Source: Anaerolineaceae bacterium
GTDB taxonomy: Bacteria; Chloroflexota; Anaerolineae; Anaerolineales; Anaerolineaceae
Direction of reading: 5' to 3'
NCBI GenBank assembly: GCA_002702705.1
Contig: PABH01000045.1
Coordinates: 1 to 64,000 of the forward strand
Length of the DNA: 64,000 nucleotides
In this document: in pieces, positions 26,859 to 49,520 of the stretch
Numbering within the stretch: the first letter of the stretch is position 1
How the letters are laid out: every line of letters starts with the position of its first letter
Notes under the pieces: model-generated
The model's input: only the letters and a program-made list of their open reading frames with translations
Told to the model about the DNA's origin: nothing
Databases searched by the model: none
Program-made: the position numbers and the translations under genes

Positions 26859-26938
26859 TTGGTTTCTCTCTGTTTTTTAAGACAATACCCAATTCTTTCT
26901 GTTTAAGATACAAGTTGTAAAATGAACGAAAAACATTA

Positions 26939-27024
26939 AACGAAAAAACCGTCCCAATACGAGACGGTTTCTGTGAGGTGCCCCCTCGCGAAGCATGCTT
27001 TAGCAAGGGAGATCGAAGTCTTTA
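26939..27024. repeat. degenerate tRNA-Glu 3' end + terminator repeat, unit A
   Basis: After the hairpin, the plus strand reads GTGAGGTGCCCCC, the reverse complement of the tRNA-Glu acceptor end and its flank. Then comes a 20-base insert around the palindrome AAGCATGCTT, then AGGGAGATCGAA, a decayed T-arm. The insert is absent from the true tRNA. This unit cannot fold as a tRNA. Confidence 0.7.
26947..26970. terminator. terminator hairpin, repeat unit A
   Basis: AACCGTC / GACGGTT stem flanked by A6 and T3, the outermost of three similar hairpins downstream of tRNA-Glu. Confidence 0.7.
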
Positions 27025-27049
27025 GATATATAGTTTAATATAAACTGTT

Positions 27050-27145
27050 AACGAAAAAACCGTCCCAACAAGAGACGGTTTTTGTGAGTGTCCCCTCGCG
27101 AAGCATGCCTTGGCAAGGAAGATTCGAACTTGTTACACATCTTTT
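27050..27145. repeat. degenerate tRNA-Glu 3' end + terminator repeat, unit B
   Basis: This is a second copy of unit A with the same layout: A6 hairpin, GTGAG flank, CCCCTCGCGAAGCATGC insert and a T-arm-like AAGATTCGAACTT. Start-to-start distance from unit A is about 111 bp and to the true tRNA copy about 108 bp, so the three look like tandem duplications. Confidence 0.7.
27058..27083. terminator. terminator hairpin, repeat unit B
   Basis: AACCGTC / GACGGTT stem with flanking A6 and T5, nearly identical to unit A. Confidence 0.75.
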
Positions 27146-27163
27146 TAATTATGACTTAAAAAT

Positions 27164-27191
27164 AAAACCGCCTCTATTCGAAGCGGTTTTT
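27164..27191. terminator. terminator of tRNA-Glu
   Basis: AAAACCGC / GCGGTTTT stem. Read on the minus strand it follows the tRNA by 7 bp and ends in TTTTATTTTT. Confidence 0.8.
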
Positions 27192-27197
27192 GTGAGG

Positions 27198-27270
27198 TGC
27201 CCCCAGGGAGATTCGAACTCCCGTTTTAGCCTTGAAAGGGCTGCGTCCTGGTCCCCTAGACGATGGGGGC
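27198..27270 (-). tRNA. tRNA-Glu (anticodon TTC)
   Basis: The 73-base gene folds as a cloverleaf: acceptor GCCCCCA/TGGGGGC, D-arm with CTAGGGGACCAGG, anticodon loop CTTTCAA giving TTC, and T-arm CGGGAGTTCGAATCTCCC. The discriminator is A. The CCA end is not fully encoded (CCT follows). It is the only tRNA recognised in the window. Confidence 0.96.
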
Positions 27271-49403: not shown

Positions 49404-49520
49404 CTCTCATCTTCCAAAAAACGAATTGATGCGTTTTTTGCCGGATTTGGCACCATCTGATCGTGGTTGCCGAGGATTCACAGGGCCGATCCCTCCACCT
49501 CTCTCGATGAGTTTCTTATT
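49404..49520 (-). promoter_or_regulatory. SAM-I (S-box) riboswitch
   Basis: Minus strand reads CTCATCGAGAGAGGTGGAGG, then GGCCCTGTGAATCC, CGGCAACC and GGTGCCAAATCCGGC, the conserved S-box core. It closes with GATGAGAG pairing to CTCATC to form P1. A terminator hairpin follows 22 bases later and metH starts 29 bases after that, so SAM binding should stop transcription. Confidence 0.95.

Follow-up and report, generated by a model that had tools for sequence, protein, structure and literature searches.

How a single glutamate tRNA gene comes to be trailed by partial copies of its own 3' end, each with a terminator, is the question raised by this locus. The window, by which the whole 64,000-nucleotide stretch of DNA analysed is meant, contains only one tRNA according to both ARAGORN and Rfam, namely tRNA-Glu(UUC). 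Two tail units lie 3' of it on the same (minus) strand, and a repeat search returned start-to-start spacings of 108 and 111 bp, confirming the two tandem units of terminator, flank, acceptor end and T-arm-like stretch that were reported in the preliminary description of this DNA. The block running from terminator to acceptor strand was found three times by this search (at 26931, 27042 and 27150; copies 83% and 72% identical to the first), and a 36-nt block bearing the insert twice (at 26978 and 27088; 89% identity). Read along the tRNA strand, each unit comprises a T-loop remnant, the 3' strand of the T stem, a palindromic insert of ~20 nt, the 3' strand of the acceptor, a CTCAC flank and its own terminator (Table 1). 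The T loop is more decayed in the distal unit than in the proximal one. The inserts, previously taken to be the same 20 bases in both units, are palindromic in both but are not identical (AAGCATGCCT vs AAGCATGCTT). The genes adjoining the units encode a sucrase/ferredoxin-like protein and a hybrid histidine kinase, and a SAM riboswitch is located elsewhere in the window (49404-49513, minus strand; RF00162, 77.7 bits).

Table 1. Features of the tRNA-Glu(UUC) locus and of the two tail units behind it.
Feature	Position	Strand	Evidence
Parent tRNA-Glu, anticodon UUC, intact	27196..27270	-	ARAGORN; Rfam RF00005, 57.9 bits
Parent tRNA terminator, inverted repeat and T run on minus strand	27164..27190	-	Sequence; fold
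Proximal unit, T loop and T-stem 3' strand (AGTTCGAATCTTCCT)	27116..27130	-	Repeat, 93% to parent T loop
Proximal unit, palindromic insert CCTTGCCAAGGCATGCTTCGCG, between T stem and acceptor strand	27097..27118	-	18/21 letters as in Glu(CUC) insert
Proximal unit, acceptor 3' strand and flank, parent-derived	27084..27097	-	Repeat search; sequence
Proximal unit, own terminator	27056..27082	-	Sequence; fold
Distal unit, decayed T loop and T-stem 3' strand (ACTTCGATCTCCC)	27007..27019	-	Sequence
Distal unit, palindromic insert CCTTGCTAAAGCATGCTTCGCG	26987..27008	-	16/21 letters as in Glu(CUC) insert
Distal unit, acceptor 3' strand and flank	26973..26985	-	Repeat search; sequence
Distal unit, own terminator	26945..26970	-	Sequence; fold

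Taken whole, both units surpass their shuffles in folding (z -2.4 and -3.7). These scores are largely terminator-driven, since the terminator of the parent alone (27150-27203) already folds at z -4.6, and the insert pieces alone give no clear excess over shuffles (z -1.9 and -1.1). In the predicted structures, the insert would extend a hairpin between the T-stem and acceptor strands.

Comparable copies stand behind other tRNAs of the same genome. Each tRNA was tested for recurrence of its last 30 nt plus 2 within 620 nt downstream, against 200 shuffles. Five of 48 beat all 200 shuffles, and these represent four genes, Glu(UUC), Glu(CUC), Arg(UCG) and Ser(GCU), because Ser(UGA) precedes Ser(GCU) and scores only through the unit of the latter. 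Behind Glu(CUC), on contig C1, lies one complete unit. Its anticodon-arm copy contains the hairpin ATATC-ATCAA-GATAT, further inserts sit in the T loop and at the junction, and the acceptor strand and a duplicated terminator complete it. Its junction insert, GCCAAGGCGCGCTTCGCG, occupies the same place as those of the window and agrees with them in 18 and 16 of 21 letters; extending the comparison to the adjoining acceptor letters gives local scores of 18.5 and 17.5, against 14 and 13 for the best of 1000 shuffles. The Arg(UCG) unit shares the layout of the Glu units, in that hairpins stand between the 5' and 3' strands of the anticodon arm and are followed by a T arm with an insert, the acceptor strand and a terminator, and the core GCTTCGC is also present in the Ser(GCU) copy. 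A related insert is therefore found at several loci of this genome, those of Glu(UUC) and Glu(CUC) and, as the GCTTCGC core, that of Ser(GCU), and the earlier view of the window units as a copied tRNA 3' end bearing a palindromic insert was right, and the insert type recurs at other tRNA copies. When searched genome-wide as an exact 10-mer, AAGCATGCTT occurs once only, its relative behind Glu(CUC) being recognisable by the letter agreement given above. No window insert was found outside the tRNA tails of this genome; the search is weak, having failed to pick up the Glu(CUC) insert, and its one faint partial match (C38:121887) has the look of ordinary sequence.

The tail copies are genuine and extend far beyond a single locus. 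A search of 60 relatives revealed extra tRNA-Glu tails beside the parent in several genera. Of 29 tRNA-Glu(UUC) loci of relatives, each from a different genome and ordered by their resemblance to the window, 7 carry units (L028, L031, L032, L042, L044, L048 and L049); two of the 29 (L024 and L047) were judged by copy search only, and a third (L040) ends after a few hundred bases. Within the same genus, this locus has a unit in one of seven relatives (G005), four lacking it by eye and two by copy search. Comparison of the locus across relatives thus yielded tail units in several of them; an inserted island, the outcome envisaged in the preliminary description, does not accompany the change of copy number in Bellilinea. 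When the unit model R1 was searched over 147 genomes of the family, arrays were found at both tRNA-Glu genes in many genera (R1 matches in at least 140 of the 147 genomes include parent tRNAs and are not an array count). Units also occur in named strains held in culture, among them Anaerolinea thermolimosa IMO-1, Bellilinea caldifistulae GOMI-1, Longilinea arvoryzae KOME-1 and Leptolinea tardivitalis YMTK-2. A scan reaching named strains returned 22 loci, of which 11 belong to Anaerolineales, all with a tRNA-Glu adjoining the match, and 11 to unrelated organisms; the latter are about as many as chance would give by a hand estimate, and none of the five that were read is a tRNA tail. Across the class, R1 at E 1e-10 matched 4 of 396 genomes, all within the order. 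A strict tandem pattern matched none of the 396, probably because few family members were sampled and the inserts disrupt the pattern. At most one tRNA, the parent, was called by ARAGORN in the window and in the Glu array loci. Bellilinea genomes with a common downstream gene differ in their copies (4 units, 1 unit and a fragment), and several arrays end in a unit that is truncated or more decayed than the others. Orphan units or arrays, with no tRNA called in the retrieved stretch, were encountered at L123 (900-983) and L240 (from 1450). Contigs of metagenomes end in or beside arrays at L028, L101, L102, L107, L108 and L113, and short-read assemblies may hide part of them.

Tail copies are not exclusive to glutamate tRNAs. 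A pattern of two spaced T loops, applied to eight genomes, pointed to tail-like copies in G469 (behind Met(CAU) and Ser(GGA)), in G002 (behind Val(CAC)) and in the genome of the window (behind Ser(GCU)), and to arrays without a called tRNA in G016. For A. thermolimosa (G450), 51 tRNAs were found and 50 tested; 18 matched, and 15 genes with 12 anticodons have tail copies. Omitted from the latter count are one Arg(UCU) gene with a plain long duplication and two Ser(UGA) genes whose matches are owed to the Ser(GCU) arrays; some of the genes counted are themselves duplicated. In the control genome (G069; same class, other family), 1 of 45 tRNAs matched, inside a reading frame of at least 208 codons, and no array was present. 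The tRNAs that bear tail copies differ from genome to genome.

An insert in the T arm is common to the tails of many of these tRNAs, and was sought as CCCC, a loop of 3-6 nt, GGGG, RTGNTA and TTCGA. The pattern occurs in 18 of 37 genomes of the order as opposed to 1 of 359 outside it (396 genomes of the class; Fisher p 5e-20), and the reversed pattern, which served as control, in 0 of 396. The core of the insert is found behind 13 genes of A. thermolimosa, none of the control genome and one of the window's genome, where it is without the hairpin; the full pattern is absent from the window's own genome, which uses the junction insert type instead. Thirty loci were read among the 67 T-arm matches listed, 29 of them within the order, and as six overlap others these correspond to ~23 distinct arrays. 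A tRNA on the same strand (Lys, Arg, Glu, Met, Ser or Asn) ends 28-226 nt upstream in all 29 in-order loci, while the single out-of-order locus has no tRNA upstream. The sequence that follows the insert is an exact copy of the last 12 nt of that tRNA in 20 of the 29, and stands at chance level (6 of 12) in L362. The element TGNTATTCGA is conserved behind different tRNAs in two families, and the orientation is sense in all loci read apart from one inverted copy (L141).

A typical Glu unit consists of the anticodon 5' strand, an inserted hairpin, the anticodon 3' strand, AAAAC, the T arm, the acceptor strand and often a terminator. The anticodon 5' strand tracks the local anticodon in most Glu units read (CCCTTTC at UUC genes, CCCTCTC at CUC genes), and the T stem and acceptor likewise match the local tRNA. 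Inserts are placed in the anticodon loop, before the T loop, after TTCGA, at the junction of T stem and acceptor and, in one genus, in the D loop. Hairpin stems of at least 4 Watson-Crick pairs are formed by 35 of 37 anticodon-arm inserts and by 15.6% of letter shuffles, a null that does not preserve dinucleotides, the 37 having been hand-picked by eye with near-identical repeat units omitted. There are 15 stems among those 35 inserts and a small set of loops, ATCGA being the commonest, and loops such as this one recur across families. Taken singly, most units fold with unremarkable energies, z lying between -0.1 and -1.7 for five of six in one set and between -0.2 and -1.5 for four of five in another, and in the first 11-unit alignment two-sided changes were detected by RNAalifold only in the T stem. 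Twenty-one of 29 units pair more weakly with the tRNA 5' half than the native 3' half does, with a more stable mean fold, which suggests that the hairpins may insulate the spare tails from the 5' half, in a comparison confounded by the units being longer and picked for acceptor match. Against Rfam 15, nothing on the array loci rose above the gathering score but tRNA, and rRNA in L293; the far sub-threshold matches were SpF41 (E 0.96), AS-pc02 (E 0.36), sX4 (E 0.03 and 0.09) and plastid elements antisense to tRNA genes.

Two further sources of the inserts were tried and rejected. That the tRNA 5' half gave rise to the anticodon-arm hairpin was unsupported for four of the six hairpins tried, and unconvincing for L028 and L032 (19 and 13 of 1000 shuffles, with the UUC tRNA only). 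The anticodon-arm hairpin resembles a folded attC-type site; integron-like cassettes were dismissed, as inserts lie also in the T arm and, in one genus, in the D arm, and no tyrosine recombinase is linked to them.

Judged from the sequences, there is about an even chance that the window holds a worn member of an order-wide class of repeat, in which tandem arrays of tRNA tails would be built by duplication and recombination and furnished with hairpin inserts. The anatomy, recurrence and order-wide spread of the arrays, the similarity of units to their own parent, their strand and their patchiness are direct observations, and the process that may have produced them can be outlined as follows. 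A segment extending from the anticodon or variable region to the terminator or trailer would be duplicated directly downstream of the tRNA gene, the initial break falling near the anticodon loop. The copies are unable to form a tRNA, as they have no 5' half. Unequal recombination could then raise and lower copy number, and recombination with the parent would keep the T stem, acceptor strand and trailer of the copies parent-like. The insert types found at different tRNAs may have spread by conversion, for which the T loop common to all tRNAs could serve as anchor. Template switching during replication, which creates perfect stems and double substitutions according to the available portion of the source (PMC8794818), could both make and mend the insert hairpins. 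Since the copies are in sense orientation within the trailer of the parent, transcription running past the first terminator would be expected to yield hairpin tails. The arrays would on this account be mainly recombination-driven DNA, tolerated through self-folding, without an essential RNA role.

That the units are functional structured RNAs made from tRNA tails, whether decoys for tRNA-cleaving or -processing enzymes or trailers that tune maturation, is possible though not probable; the hairpins would then be selected, and the acceptor strand of the parent kept for pairing or mimicry. The persistence of hairpins through stem changes (35 of the 37 hand-picked inserts), together with the recurring loops, looks like constraint and favours an RNA role over the repeat reading. 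An RNA role also agrees with the strict sense orientation, seen behind the parent at every one of the 29 in-order loci, with the TGNTA conserved next to TTCGA and with the conservation of TGNTATTCGA behind different tRNAs of two families. The acceptor strand is still complementary to the parent's 5' strand, in units that were chosen for acceptor match, and in L097 and L114, by eye, the array separates the tRNA from a terminator-like hairpin and may therefore be transcribed. Yet units are patchy, occurring at only 7 of 29 tRNA-Glu(UUC) loci and in 1 of 7 same-genus relatives, the copy-bearing tRNAs vary between genomes, the folding energy of most units is unremarkable, covariation is limited to the T stem in the 11 units aligned by RNAalifold, and, as the accessible part of one report has it, hairpins can be obtained by template switching without functional selection (PMC8794818). 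A more elaborate proposal is an order-wide RNA system of read-through cassettes, in which 3'-half mimics would combine their own acceptor strand with a common hairpin/AUGNUA-UUCGA module and serve each tRNA as decoys or regulators, one example being defence against toxins that cut tRNAs; this proposal is unlikely, and that the arrays are an RNA system at all has a moderate chance. Type III toxin-antitoxin arrays were considered as a presumed parallel, and no consistent gene was seen downstream of the tail arrays.

The reading as a recombination-driven repeat has a difficulty of its own in the upstream 5'-half copies of one genus, described below, which need an extra step under tail duplication. 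A small mobile palindromic element had also been put forward for this locus; that such an element, moved for example by a HUH (REP-type) transposase, targets tRNA-tail copies is decidedly unlikely. Related inserts do occupy the same tRNA positions at different tRNAs of one genome, and the hairpin of L109 is tandemly duplicated inside one unit, but no mobilising enzyme was found in a search that covered tyrosine recombinases, neither target-site evidence nor a target duplication was seen, and the T-arm insert is found only behind tRNAs within the order, in 29 of 29 loci read. The window insert was likewise not found off tRNA tails, in the weak search that missed the Glu(CUC) insert. Attachment-site scars, left by serial integration and loss of tRNA-targeting elements, were the other origin first suggested. 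Unit ends fall near the anticodon loop, a known crossover region of integrases, transposase-like genes (by eye) follow some arrays, and the plain Arg(UCU) repeat of A. thermolimosa could be such a site; tandem islands are moreover described at ssrA in Dehalococcoides, of the same phylum, in the available text of PMC3146451. This origin is nonetheless very unlikely, as the units are ~60-130 bp, cargo-free and directly adjoining (in the window the repeats are ~100 bp apart), copy number shifts among sister species of Bellilinea with no island, and in nine array-bearing genomes no tyrosine recombinase (PF00589) lies less than 31 kb from located arrays, the nearest being at 31 and 42 kb (G016) and 36 kb (G010), on contigs of which some are short. 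The worn state of the window units might in itself be ascribed to ordinary local decay after a chance tandem duplication of one tRNA in one strain, an account that is barely credible, being refuted by the four genes of this genome, the 15 of A. thermolimosa and the 18 of 37 genomes of the order. No more believable is an assembly artefact of repeats: several short contigs do end in or beside arrays, but in the cultured strains A. thermolimosa and Longilinea arvoryzae arrays lie within scaffolds of 3.44 and 4.15 Mb, respectively, and others are found in the single-contig genomes G270 and G047.

As repeats, the order-wide tRNA-tail arrays apparently form a new and undescribed class; no description of them was found in the literature searched, most subscription journals lying outside that coverage. 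REP/RAYT and Rickettsia palindromic elements are small hairpins, one kind of which is present at many sites. The mobile DNA of yeast mitochondria is similar, comprising small hairpins of one kind at many sites in what the available text describes (PMC4478555). The tail-array inserts differ from such short palindromic repeats in their fixed loop positions within tRNA-tail copies, their sense strand in the loci read and their parent-specific flanks. Template-switch hairpins represent a mechanism and not a class of repeat, and could explain the inserts (PMC8794818, available portion). The ssrA islands of Dehalococcoides, as far as their accessible account goes, resemble the arrays in having tandem direct repeats of a tRNA-like 3' end downstream of the gene, in the same phylum, but those repeats bound kilobase islands, many with a serine recombinase (PMC3146451), whereas the tail units measure ~60-130 bp, have no cargo and no linked tyrosine recombinase, and contain hairpin inserts and often terminators. 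Repeats or clusters with tRNA genes are also known from the tRNA arrays of Entamoeba (PMC2652664) and the tRNA array units of Mycobacterium (PMC5966550), which consist of whole genes in the parts of those reports available; the present arrays hold tails only, unable to form tRNA, with at most one complete tRNA called. The tRNA-Other of Bacillus cereus is a tRNA-like gene outside translation, although it is a single pseudo-tRNA, with no tandem tails or hairpin inserts mentioned in the accessible text (PMC3399842).

Genes for tRNAs are among the most conserved parts of genomes, yet one order grows tail copies behind many of them and builds one hairpin module into the tails of different tRNAs. 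The arrays bear on how hairpins arise and persist in RNA genes, and allow template switching and selection to be weighed against each other in a natural setting. Should the tails be expressed, they would constitute an unrecognised family of tRNA-mimic RNAs. The arrays may also explain some of the contig breaks at tRNA genes in these metagenome genomes, and they caution against calling such repeats attachment sites.

Several loci depart from the common layout. In one genus (L199, L200, L201 and L202; G413, G507 and G508), tandem copies of the tRNA-Glu 5' half stand upstream of the gene as a mirror image of the tail arrays, with hairpins in the anticodon loop and, in G508, also in the D loop; G413 and G507 additionally have full-length tRNA-like copies downstream, in which the anticodon arm is extended. 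Behind Arg(UCU) in A. thermolimosa, a stretch of at least 127 bp recurs exactly, 615 bp away and without an insert (L291, copies at 105 and 720). The repeat starts inside the anticodon loop and encloses what appears, by unaided translation, to be a small heat-shock protein gene. It is possibly the fresh-duplication, or birth, stage of an array, and could alternatively be an ordinary attachment repeat. Larger duplications of tRNA-Ser genes together with their tail arrays are found in the same organism (L308, 15185-17012; L321, 61-732). Finally, behind tRNA-Glu(CUC) of Longilinea arvoryzae (L141, 3717-3737), a unit hairpin is inverted beside an apparent sense copy, and the two form a larger palindrome.
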